IMG/VR virus record: IMGVR_UViG_3300030098_003239
Coordinates: 1,633 to 32,845 of that record
DNA: 31,213 nucleotides
From: a virus
Strand: one strand, 5' to 3'
Under the pieces are notes generated by a model. It had not been told where the DNA came from. It saw only the letters and a program-made list of their open reading frames with translations, and searched no databases. Below are positions 2,546 through 27,306 of the stretch, one piece after another (positions within the stretch are counted from its first letter, which is position 1; every line of letters begins with the position of its first letter). Made by a program: the position numbers and the translations under genes.

Positions 2546-5500
2546 ATGGCGCGTCCACTTACAGACGAAGAAAGAGCAATTCTTGAACTTGCAGAAGAAG
2601 AAGAACAAGAAGAAGAAAAAGTAGAAGTATCTCCTTCAATAGATTTAACTAAACTACTTCCTCTTCCTGCAAGAGTAGCTTTATTAGCGGATACGTTTAC
2701 AGATAGTTTATACGGTTCAACACAAGCAACCATAGGAGATTACCAAGAAACTAGAGCTCGTAGACAAGAAGGTTTGGGTCAGGATGATTTTGCTAAGGAG
2801 TTATTAAAAAGAGCGGATATAAATGAACAACAAGCTCAAGAATCTGCATATCAAGCTAAATATGGCGAAGAAGGTTTAGAACAATTTAAAAACATATCTG
2901 ATCCAGAATGGTGGGCAGCAACCATAGGTGAAGTAATACCTGGCTCAGCTCCTTTTTTAGCAGGTGCAGGAGCTGCGGGTGGAGCCACGTTTGCAGCTAC
3001 AGGTAATCCGTATGCAGCATTAGCAGCTGCAGCACTTGGAGGAGGTGCTGTTGTTTTTGCACAAACTTATGGTGACGCTTATTACGAATACTTAGAAGCA
3101 AATCCTGATGATGAAGCGGGTGCAGACAAATACGCATTAAAAAAATCAGGCATAAGCGCAATCATAAACGCAGCTAGTGTCCCTGCAGGATTAGTGGGTT
3201 TAAGTAAATCCATATTAGAGCACTACATAAAACAAGCTATATTACAAGGTGGCATTGGTGGCTTAGATACTGTGTCGCAAAATATTCTTGTTAAAAACAA
3301 TGTAGACCCTAACTTAGATATAACCACAGGCTTAGCAAAGAGCATAATAGGAGAGGCCATTGGCGAAGGGACGGTATTTGCTACAGCAGGTCGTCTAACT
3401 CTTCCTAACTTTAATGAGTTTCAAAAACAAGTTACAGAAGAAGAACGCAGTGCAAACAATGAAAAAGTAGAGGCTCTAACTAAAGCAGACCTACAAAGGA
3501 TTGCACCAGATTTAGATGATTTAGATGCAAACCAACTTAGAGAACTTATAGACGCAAATCCTGAATTAGAACTTGGTGTGGTAATACCAGGAGAAAGCAG
3601 AGAATCTTTACGTAGAAAAATTGAAGAAGCAGTAAAAGCTAAAAACGAACAAACAGTTATTAGAGAATACATGATAGATACTGTTCTTAGTAACTTTAGT
3701 CCAGAGCAAGTTTACAAAGAACAAAAAACAGCGTTTGATGCGCTAACAGACGAAGAACTGGACGCTTACATCTTAGAAGAGTTTGGCACACCAGAAGCTT
3801 ATGCAAGATGGGCTTCACGACAAGGTGAAGATTTTAGTTTTATACCTGGCACTACAGCGACCAGAGAAGAAGATCGTGTAGCGTTAGCCAATGCAGCCTC
3901 ACAATTGTTAATACGAGAAAGACAAGGCCCTGTATGGAAACTAGGTGTAAACGAGTTCAGAGACTATGTAGATAATATAGAAAAAACCTACACTATTGAT
4001 GAACTAAAAGTAGCAGTAGAGGAAGCTGTGCCTGGCATAAGAAGTAAGTTTCAAGGACGCGGAATTGAGGAGCTTTCTAGAAAGGAACTAGCAACTGCTT
4101 TAGCAGAACAAATTGCAGTTATAGAACTACAACGACAGATACGTGATAAAAATACAAATAGAACTAGAACAGTAGAACTTACAGAAACAAATTTTGATGA
4201 AGAAGGTAACCCAGTGCCTTTTAAATTTACTTCACAACTTATGCAGTTTTTAAACGAGGAAGGACCTGCTCTTAGAGCAGAGTTAATTTTATCAACTGGA
4301 GAAGATACAAATCCTATAGAAGTTGGTTTTCAAAGACGAGGCATAGAAGAGAACATGAGTTTAGCTGAACAAGCAGCTAACAGAGGAGCGGAACTTTCCG
4401 TATTTAAGGTAGATGGGGTTGAAGTAACTGAGGACAGTCCGTTTTTTAACAAAACTTTGCAAGAAGTTATTGATGGCAACACCATACAAGTTTACTACGA
4501 CACTAAGAAAACAAGATTAAGTAGCATGGACATTCCGTTAGGTCTAGCTCCTCAATTTCAAACTGGTCCAAGTTCTGCTATATCTGCATTTTTTAGCGCA
4601 TACATAAGACCGTTGATGCCTACAGGATTATTGATAGGAAGTAGAATACGACAAAAACAAGGAAACATTAGAGCGTTAGAAAGCAGAGCACAAAGACTAG
4701 GATTAGAAGTAGAGCAAGCTATAGCAGAGGCAGTTAGACGAGGCGACGTAAAAACTAAAGCGCAAGCAGATAAATTAATTATGGCGTTTTTACAACAAAC
4801 AGGAGCGCGCATAGAGCTGACAGCTGAAGAAAAAAGAGCAGCAGAACGAACAATACGAGACCTTGAACAGAAAAAAGTAAGAGACCAAGAAGAGCTTTCC
4901 AGTATTGAAATAGAAGAAATAAACGATCAAATAGAATTTTTAGAAGGACAGTTACAAGATATACAAACAACTAAAGTAGCTGCGAGACAGCTGCCTGATT
5001 CATTACGAAAACCAGCATTAAAAATTAGAGAAGGAATAGACGCTATTACAAATAGATTTTTAAATGAAATACCTGAACAAAGTTTAGATCCTAGTTTACG
5101 TTCGGTGTTGCAGCATAATTTAAACACTTACGTAACTAGATCGTATAAATTTTTCTCTCCTAATTTAGGTTGGAATCCAAAAGCTGCGATGTTAATAGAG
5201 TCTATAACAAATCTTCCTATTAACGTTGCAAACAAAGTGGGAGCAGATACTGGCACACCTAGCACAAGCATGACAGATTTGTACAACAGGGCTATTGTTT
5301 CTATGGAGTATAAATATAGAAACAGAATGCCAGATTACAGGTCTGATGCCAGACAAGAATTAGGTTCTAATGCCACTGAAGAACAAATACAAAACAGAGC
5401 TACTGAGATAAGACGAGAAAAAGCTCAACAAACTGTAGACGAATGGATTGATTCATCTTTATACAGAAGTGCGACAAATATTTCTAATATGGCAAATGTT

Positions 5501-7912
5501 TTAAAAGGCAAACAACAAGACAAGGCGGATATAAAAATAAACAGACTTCTTACACAAAGAGGAGAAATACCATACGCTGTTAGACAGTTGTTAGGAGAAA
5601 TAACAGAACCTGAGCTTATAGCTGCTACGTCTTTTGCTAGGATGGCAAGGTCTGTAGAAAACGCTACTTTTCTACAAGAAGTTAAAAGACTTGGTGAGAT
5701 GCCAGGAGAGATGTGGTTTTCTCCAGCTAAGACTCCTGAATATACGTACCAAATAGAAACGGGAGACGATTTTAATCCACTAGAAGGTTTGTGGACTACT
5801 AAGACTATGGCCGAAGCTTTGTCTGGAGGCAGTGCTATTGGCTCAGAAGATGCAATTCTTAATGTTCTTGCAAGTACATTTGGCACAGCTAAAGCCATTA
5901 CTCAATATGGAATTATTGTATTAAGCCCAGGTACACAATTTAGAAATATCTATGGTGCTGCAATTATGTATGCAATGAACGGCCATTTAAGAACCAAAGG
6001 CGGTTTAGCAGAAGCAGCAAGACTTATAGGTAATGACCTGTTTCAAAATGTGCAGTACAACCCTGAAACAGGAGAAATATCAGGCAACGTTGAAGAATAC
6101 TATTCGGCTTGGGAGTATTTACAACAACTTGGTATTGTTAATACTGAAGTTAGAGCAAATGATGCTTTGGGTGTTTTTACTCGTGTAGCTAACAGTGATT
6201 GGAAAACAATCAACGAAATGGTAAACGGTTTATACGCTTTGAAACAAACAGGACCAGGTAAAGCATTCGATAATTATGTGTTAAGTATTAATCGAGGAGC
6301 AAGACGAGCTTACGCTGCATCAGACGATTTCTTTAAAATACTTGCTTTCTTGTCTGAACGAAGAAAGTTTAAAGACATGATAAGTGAAATACCAGGATCA
6401 GATAATTTAAAACTAAGAGTATTAAGAGATTTTGCTAAAACTTTAAAAACAAAGAGCGGTCTTACAGATAAACTTTCTGGTTATGTACAAGATCAAGGCA
6501 CAGTGTTAAGGAATGTTACAGACTTAGATAAATATGTAGACCATATATCAGCTTACATGGTCAGAAATGGAATGCCTAATTATGACTACACAGGTAAATT
6601 TGCTGAGTATTATCAAAACTTACCCATAGGTAACTTTATTGCTTTCCCAACTGAAATTACTAGAACAACATTAAACTCTGGTCAATTAGTTTACAGAATG
6701 GGCACATACAACTATTCTCCAGAAGTGCGTGAGTACGCAAGACAAGAAGGAGTCATACTACCCGAAAAACCTTTTTATCGAAGAGCTCAAGAAAGATTTA
6801 TAGGAGGATATGTCGCAACTCATGGTTTAGTAGCAGCCTTGTCCAAAGGTAGTCAAATACTATTTAATATAGATGATGATGAAGCCGATGGTTTTGACCA
6901 ATTAGTTCCTGCATATTCAAAGGGAGAACGACCAATATATTTAGGCAACGAAAAACCATACCCTTATTTAAGTTCAAATTATTTCTTCCCTTACGAAGAA
7001 ATAGGTAAATTGTTTAGTGTGCTAAACACGTCTCTTACAGAAAACCAAGGAAGAAGTGATCCTGATGCTGTTAGACTAGCTATGGGAACTTTGATAGCAA
7101 ACTACACAGAAGCATACAGGCAAGAAAGTATTTCTGCTAAGTTAGCTTTAGATTTGATAAAAAATCAAAACGACAATAACCCTAGAAACATAAAACCAAT
7201 TTGGAATGAAAACGATGACTTTTACGATCAGTTTTTAGATGGATTTAAATATGCCATGAATGAAGCTGGACCTGGAGCTTACAGACAAATAAATGATGTA
7301 ATATGGTCTTTACAAGAGGAAGAAGCTTCTTTAGGTAGATATGGAAAAAGAAGAGATTTTATTACAGCTGCAGCTAGATTGTTTGGGTTTGCTGCTTCTG
7401 AACTAGATCCAGATAAATCCGTTGCATTTATTATAGATAACCAAAGAAAAATATTTGAACAAGTAACTAGGCAAAATTTAAATAGACAGTATGCGTCAGA
7501 CGAAAAGTTAACTGATGAAGACACTATAAAAGATTGGGAAGATGCACAACGTTCTTTCTTCAAACAACAACAAGAAATGTATTTTGAAATTGCAGCTCTT
7601 AAAGCTTGGGGCGTTGACGAAGACATACTTGAAGATAGATTAGCAAGTTTTGTTCAACTTACAGGTGTAGACGAGGCTTTTTATGACAATATAGAAGACG
7701 GCATTTTTACAGCGTGGCCTGTGCCATCAAGCACTATAGATAATTACGAGTCTGCTTTAGAAAAATATGGCTACAAAAATAGAACATGGCCTGAGACTCA
7801 ACTAGATCGTAAATACGATTTTATTGAAAGAAAACAAATTTCTTTAACGGGTAATTTTGAATTATCTAGGAATCTTGAGGAGAATCTTGGGGTTCGGGAT
7901 CTGGAAGACTAA
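2546..7912 (+). CDS. Giant phage internal/ejection-type polyvalent protein (1788 aa)
   Basis: At 1788 residues this is the largest gene in the window, preceded by AAGGAG five bases before the ATG. Residues about 10-30 are Glu-rich. A long Ala/Gly hydrophobic stretch near 132-178 (TIGEVIPGSAPFLAGAGAAG) could insert into or cross a membrane. Several hundred residues of charged helical sequence follow, including coiled-coil-like runs near 700-810. The C-terminal half has a segment around NLPIGNFIAFPTEITRTTLN (near residue 1355) that resembles domains of large polyvalent phage proteins. Such proteins are typically packaged in the head and ejected with the DNA. The hydrophobic N-terminal block is arranged like that of the 1034-aa protein at 21883. 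No peptidase or lysozyme catalytic motif was recognised. The 3' end overlaps the convergent nuclease gene by 47 bases. Confidence 0.65.
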   Translation: MARPLTDEERAILELAEEEEQEEEKVEVSPSIDLTKLLPLPARVALLADTFTDSLYGSTQATIGDYQETRARRQEGLGQDDFAKELLKRADINEQQAQESAYQAKYGEEGLEQFKNISDPEWWAATIGEVIPGSAPFLAGAGAAGGATFAATGNPYAALAAAALGGGAVVFAQTYGDAYYEYLEANPDDEAGADKYALKKSGISAIINAASVPAGLVGLSKSILEHYIKQAILQGGIGGLDTVSQNILVKNNVDPNLDITTGLAKSIIGEAIGEGTVFATAGRLTLPNFNEFQKQVTEEERSANNEKVEALTKADLQRIAPDLDDLDANQLRELIDANPELELGVVIPGESRESLRRKIEEAVKAKNEQTVIREYMIDTVLSNFSPEQVYKEQKTAFDALTDEELDAYILEEFGTPEAYARWASRQGEDFSFIPGTTATREEDRVALANAASQLLIRERQGPVWKLGVNEFRDYVDNIEKTYTIDELKVAVEEAVPGIRSKFQGRGIEELSRKELATALAEQIAVIELQRQIRDKNTNRTRTVELTETNFDEEGNPVPFKFTSQLMQFLNEEGPALRAELILSTGEDTNPIEVGFQRRGIEENMSLAEQAANRGAELSVFKVDGVEVTEDSPFFNKTLQEVIDGNTIQVYYDTKKTRLSSMDIPLGLAPQFQTGPSSAISAFFSAYIRPLMPTGLLIGSRIRQKQGNIRALESRAQRLGLEVEQAIAEAVRRGDVKTKAQADKLIMAFLQQTGARIELTAEEKRAAERTIRDLEQKKVRDQEELSSIEIEEINDQIEFLEGQLQDIQTTKVAARQLPDSLRKPALKIREGIDAITNRFLNEIPEQSLDPSLRSVLQHNLNTYVTRSYKFFSPNLGWNPKAAMLIESITNLPINVANKVGADTGTPSTSMTDLYNRAIVSMEYKYRNRMPDYRSDARQELGSNATEEQIQNRATEIRREKAQQTVDEWIDSSLYRSATNISNMANVLKGKQQDKADIKINRLLTQRGEIPYAVRQLLGEITEPELIAATSFARMARSVENATFLQEVKRLGEMPGEMWFSPAKTPEYTYQIETGDDFNPLEGLWTTKTMAEALSGGSAIGSEDAILNVLASTFGTAKAITQYGIIVLSPGTQFRNIYGAAIMYAMNGHLRTKGGLAEAARLIGNDLFQNVQYNPETGEISGNVEEYYSAWEYLQQLGIVNTEVRANDALGVFTRVANSDWKTINEMVNGLYALKQTGPGKAFDNYVLSINRGARRAYAASDDFFKILAFLSERRKFKDMISEIPGSDNLKLRVLRDFAKTLKTKSGLTDKLSGYVQDQGTVLRNVTDLDKYVDHISAYMVRNGMPNYDYTGKFAEYYQNLPIGNFIAFPTEITRTTLNSGQLVYRMGTYNYSPEVREYARQEGVILPEKPFYRRAQERFIGGYVATHGLVAALSKGSQILFNIDDDEADGFDQLVPAYSKGERPIYLGNEKPYPYLSSNYFFPYEEIGKLFSVLNTSLTENQGRSDPDAVRLAMGTLIANYTEAYRQESISAKLALDLIKNQNDNNPRNIKPIWNENDDFYDQFLDGFKYAMNEAGPGAYRQINDVIWSLQEEEASLGRYGKRRDFITAAARLFGFAASELDPDKSVAFIIDNQRKIFEQVTRQNLNRQYASDEKLTDEDTIKDWEDAQRSFFKQQQEMYFEIAALKAWGVDEDILEDRLASFVQLTGVDEAFYDNIEDGIFTAWPVPSSTIDNYESALEKYGYKNRTWPETQLDRKYDFIERKQISLTGNFELSRNLEENLGVRDLED

Positions 7913-10670: not shown

Positions 10671-12214
10671 ATAACGTACCTGTAGTAATCATCTTGGGCT
10701 TGTATCAGATACAAATTTTCTATTGTGCGCGTGACCGCAACATAGAACTGCCTGTGTAGCCCATCGGGTTGTAACATGGAGGTGCGCTTCTGTGACTTAG
10801 ATAAATCTAAATACACAGCAACGTTCTCCGCTTCTCCACCTTTTGCCTGATGTATGGTTGAAATGACAATTCGTGGCTCTCCATATAAATCCTCGTTGTT
10901 CTTTATTGCTTTCTCTATAAAACTTCTTCTTTCTACGTCTATCGTTTTATCAAACACCGTCTGCCATTCTTGACCAAGACACTCGGGTTTAAGTCCATAA
11001 TTATCTATTATTTGTTGCAGTGATAATGACTGCCCTTGGTTTGGAGCTTGAGAGACTTGTGTAATAAATCCTCTCTTTACTCCTGTTTTGCCCAAATACT
11101 TGTACAAAGCGTCAAGCTCAGACAATGTGATATCCTCTTGATTGTTTAGCCTTTCCCAAATTTGTATGGCCATGCTCATTTTTCTAGGTATGTATCTAAA
11201 ATTGTTATGGGCAAAAACAAAACCATTATCTATTAAATACTTTCTAACATTGTAGCCTTTTGATGCGTCAGTTAACATATAGTCACACGAGGCAAGCACA
11301 AGCCAATTACCTTCTTCCAAAGGCAGTAAATCTACTGAACTGACTTTGTTAACTGTTCCTGGCTCTTCTCTAGGTTTGTATGTCTTAGGCTCTCTAGAAA
11401 TTATGCGTTTAGATATACGCTCAGCGATAGGGTGAACTTTGCTAGGTATGCGATAAGATTGATCTAACACAATGCTCTCACCCACATAGTCTACGAAACG
11501 TTGTGGTTTTGCTCCGTTCCATTCGTATATAGCCTGATCGTCGTCTCCAGCTATATAAGTTTTCTTAGAGTTCAAGGCCAGCTTTTCTACTAATCGCCAG
11601 TTGAGTTCTGCTAAATCTTGAGCTTCATCAACAATCAATAGATCTAATTCAGGAGCTGTCCCATCATCTAAGAATTTGTTTATCATGTCAGCGAACGAGT
11701 ACACCACGGGCACTCTAGATAATCTAAACGACTCCCAAGCTTCTGCCAAAGGCTCTAGCATGTGCGTAACAACACCTTTGCGTTGCTCTTTCTCCAAAGA
11801 CAAACGTTCTTCTTTTAACGAACGACAGTTTGCTTTTGCACGTTCTATGATGTCGAAGTAGGGATCTTGGACAACGGACCTAAGACCTCTCGCGTTAGTG
11901 CCATACTTCTTAGTAAGGTTAAACTCGTAGTCCTCTAAAAAATCAAAAATGTCTCTGCCACTCATTACCTGTGATATACCCATGATTCTTTTGCAGAAAG
12001 CATGGCTAGTACAGAAATAGGGCATTTCATCAAAACCTAGTCCTAATCTTATGTTAGCTCTGTTTTTACCTTCATCTGCAGCTTTGACAGAAAAAGATAT
12101 AAAGGCTATTTTTTCAGGAGCCACACCTTCATCTAGGCTTTTCTCTATGATGTTCATAAGAGTCGTAGTCTTGCCTGTGCCAGGAGGTCCAAAGTATTTA
12201 GTTACTCTTCCCAT
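10667..12214 (-). CDS. UvrD/Rep-like superfamily 1 DNA helicase
   Basis: 515-residue SF1A-type helicase. Motif I is GPPGTGKT (residues 9-16, K15). Motif II is VDEAQD (195-200). Motif III is GDDDQAIYEWNGA (223-234), motif IV resembles QSYR (about residue 254), motif V is STIHQAKGGEAENV and motif VI is FYVAVTRT, close to the C-terminus. It unwinds duplex DNA 3'-5' using ATP and is the only classical helicase in the replication operon. No DnaB or T7 gp4-type helicase is seen, so it may act as the fork helicase or in recombination-dependent replication. At 515 residues it is shorter than cellular UvrD (about 720). The start lies inside the primase 3' end (13-base overlap). Confidence 0.93.
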   Translation of the reverse strand: MGRVTKYFGPPGTGKTTTLMNIIEKSLDEGVAPEKIAFISFSVKAADEGKNRANIRLGLGFDEMPYFCTSHAFCKRIMGISQVMSGRDIFDFLEDYEFNLTKKYGTNARGLRSVVQDPYFDIIERAKANCRSLKEERLSLEKEQRKGVVTHMLEPLAEAWESFRLSRVPVVYSFADMINKFLDDGTAPELDLLIVDEAQDLAELNWRLVEKLALNSKKTYIAGDDDQAIYEWNGAKPQRFVDYVGESIVLDQSYRIPSKVHPIAERISKRIISREPKTYKPREEPGTVNKVSSVDLLPLEEGNWLVLASCDYMLTDASKGYNVRKYLIDNGFVFAHNNFRYIPRKMSMAIQIWERLNNQEDITLSELDALYKYLGKTGVKRGFITQVSQAPNQGQSLSLQQIIDNYGLKPECLGQEWQTVFDKTIDVERRSFIEKAIKNNEDLYGEPRIVISTIHQAKGGEAENVAVYLDLSKSQKRTSMLQPDGLHRQFYVAVTRTIENLYLIQAQDDYYRYVI

Positions 12215-13818
12215 GGTAGCGGTGTCTTTTGTGTTTTGAAATCTGCAGAATCAACAGCATCATCAATTTCATTTATATCTAACATCCAAATCTTCTTGTT
12301 GCCTACTGTCCTGTCTATGTATTTAGCCATGTTTGTAGCCCCCATGTTTTTAAGTTCTGTAAATACCTCTGCCTCTTTAATGTGACGCATCTTCTTAAAC
12401 TCTTGTATGAAAATTACTGCGTCTCTCCCTGTAAACCACCACTGCTTTTCATCCTCTTCTTCGTATCGAAACACACCGTTAGATGCAATTGATAGTCTAG
12501 AGGAGGATTCAGATAATCTGCAGAACTCGTAGATAGCTTCTTGTAGTAGACCTTGCTTTGTCATGTCAGCAGGAACTTCTACCTCTTGCACGTCTTGCAA
12601 CAGAGAATTAAGCTTGGCCACCCAATCAGACTTCTTAACATCTGGAGGACATATATTAAGAACCTCCATACATCTTTGTTGATACATAGAGAAGTTGTGC
12701 AGTTGTTTTGTGTCTAGCACAATTGTCCTACCGTCTACATCAAGATGCCAAAGAGGGGGATCAGTAAGATACTTGCGTAAACCACCAAAGTTAGGCTCGC
12801 GTTCAGAGGCATCAATACCATATCTTTTTGTAACACAAATGCCACTTTGACAAAAATCAACTAAGGGTTGCTTACTGCATTGGTATCGGTAATCAGATTT
12901 TTCTAGGCTTTGTATAATTGTATTAAGTTCACTGTGAGAAAGAGCCTTAGTGCAAACAGACTTGTTTATGTCTTGTAGTTTGTCTTTCCACTCTTCTCCC
13001 TCAGGATATACTTTACGTAAGAATACTCCATAATTTAAAAGTGCATTGTTACGCATGCCCTCGGGTATGCCATTTAGTTTCATGTGCACTAAACATGGCG
13101 GAGCTTCGTCCCACATGCTGCCTTGTTTTGTTATCTGTTTCTTTCTGCTTTTCTTTACAGCTATAAATGAGTCTAACTGTTTTTCCGTTATGGCTATGTT
13201 TTCTACTAAATCAAAAAATTCGTGTATGTCCGCAGCTTCTCCATCAGGTTTGAGCGCGTATCTTGTTGTATCTTCTCCTGCAAAGTAAGGCATGTTTAAC
13301 CAGTTGCCTGTTTGATTTTCTTTCGGTAACTGCTTAGACCACTCGTATTGTTTAGGAAATATTTCGTCTCCTGTCCTGCCCATGGCTGCAGCTATCTCTT
13401 CAAGTTTAGCTTGAAACTTGTATGCGGATATAGGCTCCTTTGTAAATAAAAACAAATGTAGGCCTCCTGATTTAGTCATACAAGGTAGGAGAGGCAAACT
13501 CATTTCTTCTATGCGTTGTAATATTTCTTTGGTGTCTATTGGATATTCGTCTACATCTATGCAGCCCCAGCTACACGTTTCATCGTCAGTCAGAGGTATT
13601 ACACCTATGGATAAATCACCTTTTAAATGTTTTTCCCAAAGTTCTAAAGTAAGAGGCTCTTGTAGTGTCCTGCCTCTGCCATCTTTCTTTACACCTTTTG
13701 CAGTGTTTTTTTGACCTGTAATTTCATATATACCGTGAGCCCTCTCCAATCCCGAGAATACTTGCTTGAATCTGTTTGCAATTTCTTCCATGCGCGTCCA
13801 GTAAGAAGGCTCCAGCAT
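12202..13818 (-). CDS. Archaeo-eukaryotic-type primase (PrimPol-like)
   Basis: 538 residues. The N-terminal domain has the AEP signature: metal-binding D88-x-D90 in GCIDVDEY, an sxH-type motif SGGLH (117-121), and a downstream basic/aromatic section (EIFPKQ, TGNWLNMPYF) as in TOTE/PrimPol-type primases. Middle Cys residues (PPCLVH, then YQCSKQ, DFCQSGIC) suggest a metal-binding or PriCT-like domain. The C-terminal third is helical with no recognised motif. It would make RNA or DNA primers for the phage polymerase. The chosen ATG at 13818 lies inside a perfect hairpin (13807-13841) and has no Shine-Dalgarno sequence. ATG 13791 (residue 10) is an alternative, also without a good ribosome-binding site. 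Confidence 0.82.
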   Translation of the reverse strand: MLEPSYWTRMEEIANRFKQVFSGLERAHGIYEITGQKNTAKGVKKDGRGRTLQEPLTLELWEKHLKGDLSIGVIPLTDDETCSWGCIDVDEYPIDTKEILQRIEEMSLPLLPCMTKSGGLHLFLFTKEPISAYKFQAKLEEIAAAMGRTGDEIFPKQYEWSKQLPKENQTGNWLNMPYFAGEDTTRYALKPDGEAADIHEFFDLVENIAITEKQLDSFIAVKKSRKKQITKQGSMWDEAPPCLVHMKLNGIPEGMRNNALLNYGVFLRKVYPEGEEWKDKLQDINKSVCTKALSHSELNTIIQSLEKSDYRYQCSKQPLVDFCQSGICVTKRYGIDASEREPNFGGLRKYLTDPPLWHLDVDGRTIVLDTKQLHNFSMYQQRCMEVLNICPPDVKKSDWVAKLNSLLQDVQEVEVPADMTKQGLLQEAIYEFCRLSESSSRLSIASNGVFRYEEEDEKQWWFTGRDAVIFIQEFKKMRHIKEAEVFTELKNMGATNMAKYIDRTVGNKKIWMLDINEIDDAVDSADFKTQKTPLPWEE

Positions 13819-24800: not shown

Positions 24801-24987
24801 ACCAAGCGCAAAAGAATTATTTACAGTTATTCCTGGTAGCCAAGATCTTAATAGAGGCCCGTATTACCAGCTAGACTTACGTTCACTACGCAGTCAAATA
24901 GAAGCAAAAGTATTTGAAGGCTTCAAAGGATACAAAGAAGGTGGTTTGGTTATGAACTACGGTGACTATGGAAGGAGTTATATTTAA
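21883..24987 (+). CDS. Large polyvalent phage protein (1034 aa), possible ejection protein
   Basis: 1034 residues. The N-terminal 250 residues contain Gly/Ala-rich hydrophobic stretches (near 75-150) and then REGSTELLQGLTEQFG and GEGLIGGATG, an arrangement shared with the N-terminus of the 1788-aa protein. Residues about 270-310 are Arg/Glu/Gln-rich. Near 641-655 lies GEGLLVHEFQSNVHAH, similar to the EIQSD-H motif found in large polyvalent phage proteins, and near 925-940 TAIAHAIDTGLNHIIIP, which accompanies it in such proteins. These domains occur in virion-packaged multidomain proteins; their activity is unsettled. TATAAA lies eight bases before the ATG and no Shine-Dalgarno is seen. Its stop overlaps the nuclease start (TAATG at 24985-24989). 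Confidence 0.6.
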   Translation: MAIFGEDITAADLAAGKLQGSEKEASEFSKALRFGLDQPTENVATTLRALGFDTQADTLSGLIDAPKDYDSKAAQFVGEEGMYDFSALPLAVVEQAGQLGGSLLSRGIGAGAGFAVGNVPGAVIGGLLGPGLFEAVQIAGPVALERARNNGRTEPDTSDWAAALGTAAFSGVLNAIGAKNIGKLNTTLVGSGVREGSTELLQGLTEQFGSTAGTDKGLELDLRQAGGEGLIGGATGFTAQVPTSTLQTAPQAIEKIKDLLPTQRPTTAPMAVRGMQDTTDPDRLQRREQIQEIREGIERFEQEVPQADQENIQEQLNDEEIQRAFVEAQGPYIRNHIARYYGAAGENVQLDVINDVQEYIQTNYPLFDPRVPENTESTIADRIAGQIDAQFEIRQQIVPNPRQAVEEGDKRFEAPLNTEFDIYSEVVPQTAMGPPARIPKVLGGPRAGITSLETQIDPVFMTKRVSSDRVDNLPNSPMKPDFAMKQLGIKKVDNKFVYEPTKAQIGPEANELINMEIASFLDYKKRVDETVTKNEIKGVFNDTLSRFKSVLTEGANTHYKSNYEDTEDLKTLFPEMNPVDDSVELWTEYVPRLPEGENKFDSPLFNRDPDTAHNPRTRGSDGGNLFWWRGKYVEDPNGKLGEGLLVHEFQSNVHAHPQSTNPRYEDVTYLSQLSTDTDQDIQETKEKIQAANNATVAFQNQLANTTLKNGREYPSYSAEINSQAVGSMLGLYDYSSKTVSDLFFHMVDVSPKFKEILEEYESKRDAARIETYKNLLLARQPFGIAGVQITPEDVDFTDTRFGFSSARRQLYQNLADKGFDVQAEALTSPELTYSLERVKKLETDLYDREKDQDRDFFEQTVKDNLPTIAEQFPAVYDMQRAARNYPSKQELERYERFQRTQYNRKAFPDYPFKKNYPQMDLRTAIAHAIDTGLNHIIIPEKGFTPDEAGVKGTYNRVKKEAEKIAKQIASKGGPSAKELFTVIPGSQDLNRGPYYQLDLRSLRSQIEAKVFEGFKGYKEGGLVMNYGDYGRSYI

Positions 24988-25406
24988 TGTATGAATACAA
25001 TTGCACAGTTGAAAAGGTGGTTGATGGCGATACTATCGACGTTGTTTTGGATCTCGGTTTCGATATTTTGTATAAGTCTCGTGTTCGCCTATACGGCATT
25101 GATACTCCCGAGTCACGTACTCGTAACAAAGATGAGAAGGCTAGAGGAAAAATGGCTGGGTCTTTCTTAGAAGAAGCTATCGAGGACGGGGAGAAAGTAG
25201 TTATACAAACAAAGCTCAAGGACTCCAGAGGTAAGTTTGGGAGAGTCTTGGGTGATGTCGTTGTAGATGGCGTAAACATCAACAAGCTCATGGTTAAATG
25301 CCACCTGGCGGTAGCCTACTATGGTCAATCAAAAAAAGACGTAGAAGCCGAACACATGCGTAACAGGGATATTCTAATAGAAAAAGGAATATTCGAACCA
25401 GTATAA
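24987..25406 (+). CDS. Staphylococcal-nuclease-like (thermonuclease) protein
   Basis: 139 residues of the SNase family. Motifs: VEKVVDGDTIDVVLD (metal site around D13-D18), RVRLYGIDTPESR with R34, D39, T40 and E42 corresponding to Arg35, Asp40, Thr41 and Glu43 of S. aureus nuclease, and RGKFGRVLGDV with R86 corresponding to Arg87. All catalytic residues are therefore present. There is no signal peptide, so it acts in the host cytoplasm or after packaging. It is a calcium-dependent nuclease of DNA or RNA. It could degrade host nucleic acid for reuse or process phage DNA. Coupled to the preceding 1034-aa gene by TAATG. A 291-base non-coding stretch follows. Confidence 0.93.
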   Translation: MYEYNCTVEKVVDGDTIDVVLDLGFDILYKSRVRLYGIDTPESRTRNKDEKARGKMAGSFLEEAIEDGEKVVIQTKLKDSRGKFGRVLGDVVVDGVNINKLMVKCHLAVAYYGQSKKDVEAEHMRNRDILIEKGIFEPV

Positions 25407-25416
25407 ATCACTATAC

Positions 25417-25428
25417 ATATCCCATAAA
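25417..25428 (+). repeat. Intergenic motif ATATCCCATAAA, one of three copies
   Basis: ATATCCCATAAA at 25417-25428 recurs exactly at 30670-30681 and as ATGTCCCATATA at 27286-27297. All three copies lie in intergenic regions upstream of plus-strand features (the RNA candidate, the small terminase gene and the endonuclease gene). Two copies also share CTATAC a few bases upstream. Shared position suggests a promoter or regulator site; this is inference. Confidence 0.35.
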
Positions 25429-25453
25429 ATAAATTAGAATATATCTGCGTTAC

Positions 25454-25628
25454 AGGTTTTTAACCTAGCTGGATAGGGGGTAGCGTAAGGTTTGTTAATG
25501 GCCTTGAATTCCAGAGGGCACCAGCAGACGGTGTGCTCCATGAGAAAAACATCTGCAGGGGGAGCTGTTCGAGCCAAATGCCTTACTTTTACATAGTTTT
25601 AGTAAAGCCTCCAGCCCAGTGATCCCCC
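25454..25628 (+). ncRNA. Candidate structured RNA with pseudoknot, class unknown
   Basis: Non-coding stretch between the nuclease gene and the 89-aa gene, more GC-rich than its surroundings. Helices found by eye: AGGTT/AACCT (25454-25466); GGGGG 25476-25480 with CCCCC 25624-25628, closing the structure; GTAAGG-TTTG 25485-25494 with CAAA-TG-CCTTAC 25575-25586; a hairpin GAGGGCACC/GGTGTGCTC (25514-25522/25530-25538, one mismatch) whose loop GCAGA can pair with TCTGC 25552-25556 as a pseudoknot; and TTTAC/GTAAA (25588-25592/25602-25606). It could be a cis-acting leader of the following genes or a trans-acting RNA. I checked mentally against tRNA, tmRNA, RNase P, common riboswitches and group I introns and saw no match. 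Confidence 0.5.
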
Positions 25629-25644
25629 GATTAAATAGATAATG

Positions 25645-25682
25645 ACAAAAGGTCTGGTATCCTAAAGTCTCAGGCCTTTTGT
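25645..25682 (+). terminator. Strong hairpin, possible terminator or attenuator
   Basis: ACAAAAGGTCTG (25645-25656) pairs with CAGGCCTTTTGT (25671-25682): a 12-bp stem with one G-U pair and a 14-base loop. The 3' arm contains TTTT, but the bases after the stem (TACACTAGG) are not a T-run, so termination would be weak. It ends five bases before AGGAG, the ribosome-binding site of the 89-aa gene, so it could end the structured RNA or attenuate downstream expression. Confidence 0.45.
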
Positions 25683-25697
25683 TACACTAGGAGAATA

Positions 25698-25993: not shown

Positions 25994-26665
25994 ATGGACG
26001 GCAACGGCGATCTAGGTATAACAGGCGGAGGATCTACAGGTATCCCCGAGATAGTTGTATCTGGAGTACAACCAGGCATATCTGGTAGGTTTGGCCCTGG
26101 CGGTATGAGCATACTAACAGGCCCTTTTACTGGTGGCATAGGAGCTTATGCTTCACCGTTTGGAATGGGAGACTTTACACCCAGCATACCTACGCCCGTT
26201 ATGCCTCAGTTCAAACCAGAAAAAACTTTTGGAGAAAAAGCTAAGGAAAGCATTTTAGGATTTTTAAAACGTTTGGCGAGAGTACATCCAGCTACGCGTA
26301 ACGCAGCATTCGCTCTTGATTTTGTAAAAGGTTTGCAAGATGCAGAAAACCCACAGGAATTTGTTAAAGGCGTAGTAGGCAATTTAGCTATGCGTAAGGT
26401 AGGAAGCAATCTAGGCATTTCTCCCATGGCTCGCGCAGGCATAAGAACGGTGAGAAATGTTGGACAAGGTAACATCACGCCAGGACAAGGCATAGCCAGT
26501 CTTGGTACATCTGCAGCTTTCCAAAAGGCTGGACCGTCATTGTTTAAATCGGCCTACGACAAAGGCGGAATGAACGCGGTGTACGGTGTCGCTACGTTAT
26601 TGGGTATGGCACAAAACGCTGCTCAGCGAAAAATTTTACAGCCAGGGCCAGGTGGCGGTGGGTAA
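25994..26665 (+). CDS. Hypothetical Gly-rich, possibly virion-associated protein (223 aa)
   Basis: 223 residues. The first 75 are Gly/Pro-rich (GGGSTGIPEIVVSG, RFGPGGMSILTGPFTGG). The middle is helical and basic (EKAKESILGFLKRLARVHP), and the C-terminal part is Ala/Gly-rich with possible weak membrane affinity (NAVYGVATLLGMAQNAA), ending GPGGGG. No enzymatic motif. Composition resembles the small proteins beside giant virion proteins in marine phages, so a virion or assembly role is inferred. The last bases overlap the start of the following small gene (GTGGGTAA). Confidence 0.55.
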   Translation: MDGNGDLGITGGGSTGIPEIVVSGVQPGISGRFGPGGMSILTGPFTGGIGAYASPFGMGDFTPSIPTPVMPQFKPEKTFGEKAKESILGFLKRLARVHPATRNAAFALDFVKGLQDAENPQEFVKGVVGNLAMRKVGSNLGISPMARAGIRTVRNVGQGNITPGQGIASLGTSAAFQKAGPSLFKSAYDKGGMNAVYGVATLLGMAQNAAQRKILQPGPGGGG

Positions 26666-26789: not shown

Positions 26790-26796
26790 TACGTCT

Positions 26797-26896
26797 TGGT
26801 TAAACAAACACACACTGTTTGCCTAGTGTGGACTCAAAAAGGCTTAGTTTCACAAAACTAGAGAAAGGGAAGAACCCGTAATTCTTCCCTTTTTTT
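26797..26896 (+). ncRNA. Candidate ~100-nt small RNA or structured 3' UTR
   Basis: A TATAAT at 26785-26790 predicts a transcript start near 26797, and the strong terminator ends at 26896. Between them, CAAACA 26805-26810 pairs with TGTTTG 26816-26821, and the CACAC loop (26811-26815) can pair with GTGTG 26826-26830, giving an H-type pseudoknot. A second hairpin, TAGTTT/AAACTA, lies near 26845-26860. The same structures could be the 3' UTR of the operon. No -35 box was found, so independent transcription is uncertain. Confidence 0.4.
26864..26896 (+). terminator. Intrinsic (Rho-independent) terminator
   Basis: AAAGGGAAGAA (26864-26874) pairs perfectly with TTCTTCCCTTT (26882-26892) around a seven-base loop, followed by an uninterrupted T-run to 26896. 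This is the clearest terminator in the window and ends the plus-strand unit that starts upstream of the holin-like gene or at one of its internal promoters. Confidence 0.9.
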
Positions 26897-26946
26897 GTGG
26901 ACGAGGGACAATGGACTCGGAACGACGGCCCAAGGACAAGGGACTT

Positions 26947-27266
26947 TCTAACCTGAACCTCACTTTAGAAGTTAGATGTAAGCTATTGATTTTGTTGACA
27001 ATAAAAATCTTCTAACTTTGGTAAGGTTAGATCGTAAGTTATTGATTTTATTAGCAATGTTTCTATTCCTATATAACAAAACCTAACCTAACCTGTAATA
27101 TTTCAAAAAGTTTTCACGAATACGCTCAAAATCCAGTTTTTTTATTTTTCAGGTTATAAATGGTAAAAATATAAGTCCTATAAGGGTTTCCATCTAACTT
27201 CTGCAAAGTTAGGTCAGGTTAGAAAGTCTTGAAAATGTTGAAAGAATGCGGGTTTAGAGCTAACCT
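26947..27266. repeat. TCTAAC/GTTAGA repeat region upstream of terminase (pac, origin or regulator-binding candidate)
   Basis: The 446-base stretch 26897-27342 has no gene. It contains three inverted units bounded by TCTAAC and GTTAGA (26947-26976, 27011-27031, 27193-27223), a triple CCTAACCTAACCT (27082-27094) and single copies such as GCTAACCT (27259-27266). Two copies of a 34-36-base direct repeat (26969-27002 and 27024-27058, period 55) share GTAAG(C/T)TATTGATTTT. Clustered iterons in the only long intergenic region, immediately upstream of the small terminase gene, suggest a packaging site, replication origin or operator array. No protein partner can be assigned from sequence alone. Confidence 0.6.
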
Positions 27267-27306
27267 GGCAGAAGTTATGTATTATATGTCCCATATATAA
27301 TAAAAC

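Follow-up and report, generated by a model that had tools for sequence, protein, structure and literature searches.

Among the structured RNAs of phages, the put RNA of HK022 is a short two-hairpin antiterminator that acts in cis, and the pRNA of phi29 is a phage-encoded RNA of the DNA packaging motor. The GOLLD and ROOL RNAs are also linked to phages. These two are ornate structured RNAs that are functional orphans (PMC12286853), and both are much larger than the RNA described here, which has no Rfam match. Proteo-phage-1 (RF03044) is a catalogued orphan sRNA, on which a literature search found no text. As at the locus described here, the loop of the first hairpin of Proteo-phage-1 pairs with the strand that immediately precedes the second hairpin (PKa), the second hairpin has a loop pseudoknot (PKb) with an A-rich linker ending in AACA, and the RNA is phage-borne, is often followed by a terminator-like hairpin and lies near late genes.

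The window, i.e. the entire analyzed stretch of 31,213 nt (positions 1,633–32,845 of the IMG/VR virus record IMGVR_UViG_3300030098_003239), encodes a structured RNA (Table 1) that is best read as a divergent, extended Proteo-phage-1-like RNA. That the structured RNA is real is established by comparative evidence; its folding energy on the plus strand is no better than that of shuffled sequence (z = 0.03), so that the single sequence alone proves nothing. Viral contigs were gathered by searching for proteins similar to the upstream nuclease and to the product of the downstream 89-amino acid ORF, and blastn on these contigs identified homologues of the intergenic region at 77–100% identity. Across the 16 distinct homologous sequences of alignment A1, the 49 proposed pairs, which form 8 helices, are 97.6% paired, and 13 of these pairs have changed on both sides (48 such cells, compared with an average of 14.8 in shuffles). 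None of the 500 shuffles reached the observed percentage of paired positions or the covariation score, and sliding the partner columns by 1–3 lowers the pairing to 35–43%. The covariance model R1 scores the window at 211 bits and detects 16 full-length IMG/VR contigs at 193–222 bits and one truncated contig (the E-values of the home-made models R1, R2 and R3 are rough). The original prediction, made from this DNA alone, was that of a structured RNA with a nested pseudoknot, to be checked with a covariance model and an Rfam search and to be abandoned if the homologues had no compensatory base changes. The structure holds: compensatory changes are present, and the RNA has at least two pseudoknots that are conserved by covariation.

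There is no ORF of 50 or more amino acids in 25407–25697, a tRNA and tmRNA search of the window found none, and the window-type contigs, searched whole, contain one copy of the RNA per record. A blastn search of annotated phages returned only a 23-nt chance match, R1 found no copy in HTVC023P and HTVC027P (Pelagibacter phages), phage 023Pt_psg01 and phage DSL-LC04, which were searched whole and had been picked as the nearest by DNA polymerase, and a pattern scan of genome contigs gave no covariance model match among the stretches found. Pattern and neighbour searches identified, among the matches listed, the diverged relatives L226 and L227 (68 and 65 bits), L323 (62.7 bits) and L309 (27.9 bits, E = 5e-7). 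The distribution of relatives in the IMG/VR pattern scans is a lower bound, so that the RNA is at least as widespread as the matches listed.

Table 1. Coordinates of the RNA, its helices and its flanking elements in the window, with the basis for each.
Feature	Coordinates	Strand	Basis or remark
Staphylococcal-nuclease-like endonuclease gene (context)	24987–25406	+	PF00565, 5e-14; phrog_452
Invariant block CTATACATATCCCATA, with −35-like TATACA at 25412–25417	25411–25426	+	identical in 17/17 aligned sequences
−10-like hexamer TARAAT	25435–25440	+	17-nt spacing; TAGAAT/TAAAAT kept in all relatives
Structured RNA (whole)	25447–25628	+	R1 scores and pair counts; ~182 nt
P1 hairpin	25447–25453/25480–25486 (span 25447–25486)	+	99–100% paired; both-side changes in 3 pairs
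P1.1, inside P1	25464–25466/25475–25477	+	covered by P1 pair counts
PKa, P1.1 loop CUGGA with UCCAG	25469–25473/25510–25514	+	helix 1 of Proteo-phage-1
Competing pairing GCUGGA/UCCAGC	25468–25473/25610–25615	+	excludes PKa
P2 hairpin	25487–25490/25502–25505	+	96.7% paired; apical part variable
P3 hairpin, bulged U 25532	25516–25522/25531–25538	+	100% paired in A1
PKb, P3 loop GCAGR with YCUGC	25524–25528/25552–25556	+	100% paired; A-U/G-C exchange
P5	25558–25563/25623–25628	+	100% paired; 3 pairs with both-side changes
P5 extension	25564–25567/25617–25620	+	alternative small hairpin 25564–25566/25572–25574
P6 hairpin	25580–25587/25601–25608	+	6/8 pairs with both-side changes
Intrinsic-terminator-like hairpin ACAAAAGGYCTGG...CAGGCCTTTTGT	25643–25684	+	fold energy in relatives

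Covariation extends across the subtypes. PKa, which is 100% paired in A1 (G-U in two), is fully paired across the window, L226 and L323 types, with two pairs changed on both sides in L226, L227 and L323. The hairpin that had been predicted to pair through its loop with a downstream segment is P3 with PKb, the latter supported by A-U to G-C covariation; the outer pairs of P3 show both-side changes in the other subtypes, and the A-rich linker ending in AACA sits 5′ of the downstream strand of PKb. Both P3 and P5 exchange pairs across the window, L226 and L323 types, with A-U replacements in P5 of the L226 type, and the alternatives at 25564–25567 (P5 extension or small hairpin) are invariant within A1. 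The further hairpin of the original prediction corresponds to P6. Because of the double changes in P6, the competing GUAAGG/CCUUAC helix of the MFE fold, probably the predicted 10-bp inner helix, is ruled out: it is broken in relatives (e.g. L022, L027 and L041), and its CCUUAC strand is part of P6. The proposed closing helix of GGGGG (25476–25480) and CCCCC (25624–25628) was rejected as well, being 90% paired with a covariation score of 0.262 versus 0.246 ± 0.025 in shuffles, whereas the C-run pairs 100% with GGGGGA at 25558–25563, where three pairs are double-changed. The predicted extent (25454–25628) starts 7 nt too late, P1 having the first base of its 5′ strand at 25447.

The further remark that the RNA matched no known class stands for the window sequence itself, for which Rfam yielded only chance-level matches (Thr_leader and miRNAs) at both gathering and relaxed (E ≤ 10) thresholds, but the 5′ ~110 nt resemble Proteo-phage-1. 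In searches against 4227 families, RF03044 comes out first for L028, the best-scoring member of the window family tested (24.8 bits, E = 0.01), for L226 (23.7 bits, E = 0.023) and for L323 (18.2 bits), and second for L309 (13.4 bits); all these matches are below the curated gathering score of 42 bits, which was reached neither by the window type nor by the diverged relatives, while the positive control phiAH14a scores 82.1 bits. The L028 match, like the others for which there is an alignment, falls in the independently derived register: PKa, a 5′ segment paired with the bases that immediately precede hairpin 2, is helix 1; P3 is hairpin 2; and the AGC-GG-type pseudoknot from its loop to the strand after the AACA linker is PKb, the strand of which (AACACCUGCAG versus AACACCGGCAG) is one compensated pair apart. 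Direct comparisons of models gave less: R1 found none of the classical Proteo-phage-1 members, R3 was not significant on them, and R2, built from true members, detected in the window family only L023 and L028 (9.6 bits, E = 3.4). Because all matches are below 42 bits and the model-versus-model searches are negative or weak, the window RNA is considered a divergent relative that does not qualify for membership under the Rfam rule. The same results are those that favor convergence, with a similar H-type pseudoknot having arisen in an unrelated class of RNA; this appears rather unlikely, considering that RF03044 ranks first or second for four loci from three subtypes and that the order of the elements, the AACA linker and the PKb strand with its compensated pair all agree.

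True Proteo-phage-1 members with flanks number at least 118 in viral contigs, among the matches listed. In 17 classical members, P1, PKa and P3 covary strongly and the order of the elements is identical to that in the window RNA; PKb is invariant in this set because the search pattern fixed it. The P1 hairpin is missing from the Rfam model, so that this hairpin with its loop pseudoknot is new to the modelled structure. The window type differs from that model in its outer P1 with a conserved U-run and in the 3′ domain (P5/P6), and from Proteo-phage-1 also in the P3 apex with a bulged U and in having its own promoter-like block. Furthermore, the window type comes from marine phages and has an SNase neighbour, whereas the classical members come from Pseudomonas-type temperate phages with Q-like neighbours; a longer marine-phage relative would thus widen the class beyond the latter phages. 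A Proteo-phage-1 search of 274 genomes from the class of Pseudomonas spelaei gave no match anywhere and is uninformative.

Two observations concern the classical RNAs themselves. In L326–L445, conservation runs ~100–150 nt 3′ of the Rfam match (e.g. ...GATCGATGCA...GGGCGTCGACG...), so that the Rfam model probably spans only the 5′ part of Proteo-phage-1. In the Pseudomonas phage phiAH14a (L446), the RNA at 3962–4054 is overlapped by gp55, a minus-strand ‘hypothetical protein' that is probably a spurious annotation.

The RNA looks like a free-standing ncRNA gene, given the conserved promoter-like block and the terminator-like hairpin found in 9 of the 16 relatives. The 40 nt between the stop codon of the nuclease gene and P1 hold CTATACATATCCCATA, which occurs once in the window, and TARAAT at a fixed spacing, and this −35/−10-like block ends 7 nt 5′ of the first base of P1, where transcription would be expected to start (~25447). 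The promoter scan match in the CTATACATATCCCATA region is 9/12; because shuffles also give a mean of 1.0 such match, the evidence for the promoter-like block is its conservation. The terminator-like hairpin has a folding energy of about −19 to −24 kcal/mol where present, is absent from 7 of the 16 relatives and was not called by a simple consensus terminator scan, the U run being located within the stem; a similar hairpin also lies 3′ of the RNA in L226, L323 and L309. In the seven window-type relatives without a terminator, a gene follows close behind, so that the RNA could be co-transcribed with it. In L226 and L227, the RNA begins directly at the stop codon of the methyltransferase gene, which leaves no visible intergenic promoter of its own.

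In each of the 16 full-length window-type contigs, the SNase-like gene immediately precedes the RNA, and in the window a terminase small subunit gene (Terminase_2) is located 1.7 kb downstream. In L226 and L227, the RNA has the corresponding genomic position: homologues of the 25994–26665 ORF and of the terminase small subunit lie downstream, and a C5 DNA methyltransferase gene, which in L227 replaces the nuclease gene, lies upstream. The first downstream gene differs among the relatives (gp89 or other small ORFs), the RNA of some of which lies only a few bases 5′ of a start codon; in L309, a DUF927 gene precedes the RNA and a convergent gene follows it. The classical members examined are preceded by genes of the NinG and Q-like kinds (phrog_171; phrog_3412/3373, with a weak Q-like match in one case) and are followed by holin or terminase genes.

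This last arrangement, along with the order in the window of promoter, RNA, terminator and a series of genes that extends to the terminase small subunit, is what recommends a cis-acting antiterminator of the HK022 put type, in which the nascent RNA modifies RNA polymerase and reads through the terminator into the lysis/packaging genes; put, too, is a structured RNA between the promoter and the terminator of a phage transcription unit; the window RNA, unlike put, contains two pseudoknots. Such antitermination is the main rival to a trans-acting scaffold but is itself unlikely: the convergent gene in L309 leaves this homologue with nothing to read into, the nearby terminator is absent from seven window-type relatives, and several Pseudomonas-type phages have a terminator-like hairpin on the upstream side of the RNA as well, where a later-made RNA would be of no help. 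A role in the DNA packaging motor, like that of phi29 pRNA, is suggested by the phage origin, similar size (about 180 nt) and loop-based pairings of the RNA, and by its proximity to the terminase genes in the window, in L227 and in the classical phages. This role is, however, very improbable, because the RNA has no sequence or profile match to phi29 pRNA, matches none of the pRNA families in Rfam, has, in L309, no packaging gene close by among the listed ORFs, and belongs to a different type of phage, with a Terminase_2 small subunit.

The P1 loop has a second potential partner, at 25610–25615, with all 6 bp possible in 15 of the 16 A1 sequences and 5 of 6 pairs in the remaining one; 4 of 5 pairs are kept in the L226 type, with one double change. 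The classical Proteo-phage-1 members inspected show no evident second partner, and homology favors 25510–25514; the other complementarity may be due to chance or may be a switch. Control of the downstream gene by a riboswitch or attenuator that toggles between the two partners would account for both of them staying complementary in the window type and, for the most part, in the L226 type, where there is a compensatory change, and for the RNAs situated a few nucleotides 5′ of a start codon. It is nonetheless quite improbable, as neither partner is overlapped by the terminator, the second one is not evident in the classical members inspected, and there is no consistent downstream gene in the same orientation; the varied neighbours and the L309 arrangement argue against control of any single neighbouring gene. 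More speculative, and doubtful, is the idea that the alternating P1 loop is a bistable switch timing late expression (e.g. by acting on RNA polymerase) and that Proteo-phage-1-like RNAs are widespread unrecognized regulators of late transcription or packaging.

Judging by sequence and gene order, the window RNA is plausibly, on balance, a stand-alone, probably late, trans-acting phage ncRNA scaffold of ~182 nt, related to Proteo-phage-1 but divergent and enlarged. That the RNA lies close to where lysis/packaging clusters begin in unrelated phages suggests that they have a late function of the RNA in common. Under this proposal, the RNA would be transcribed alone, from its own promoter starting at about 25447, as the lysis and packaging genes come on, and the transcript would end at the terminator-like hairpin or read on where the hairpin is absent. 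The 5′ half would fold into the shared module, PKa followed by the PKb hairpin across the A-rich linker, and the 3′ half (P5 with P6) would clamp the other end. The folded RNA would then act in trans as a scaffold or decoy that binds a putative protein partner, and not by switching a single neighbour. The boundaries and mutations now make the function of the RNA testable.

Several other features of the window are of note. A 67-amino acid ORF is separated from the terminase small subunit gene by ~500 nt (26790–27306) that contain no long ORF, and L227 has a similar ORF-poor gap (about 5832–6259). A primase of the AEP-TOTE type (PF22548, 3e-13; phrog_21866) is encoded at 12202–13818. The segment 17175–21865 is a curli-type cassette in a phage genome, with genes for CsgF (PF10614, 1e-19), CsgG (PF03783, 2e-51) and FecR (PF04773), a repeat protein of curlin-like appearance (no Pfam match) and a protein with CHASE2 and adenylate/guanylate cyclase domains.
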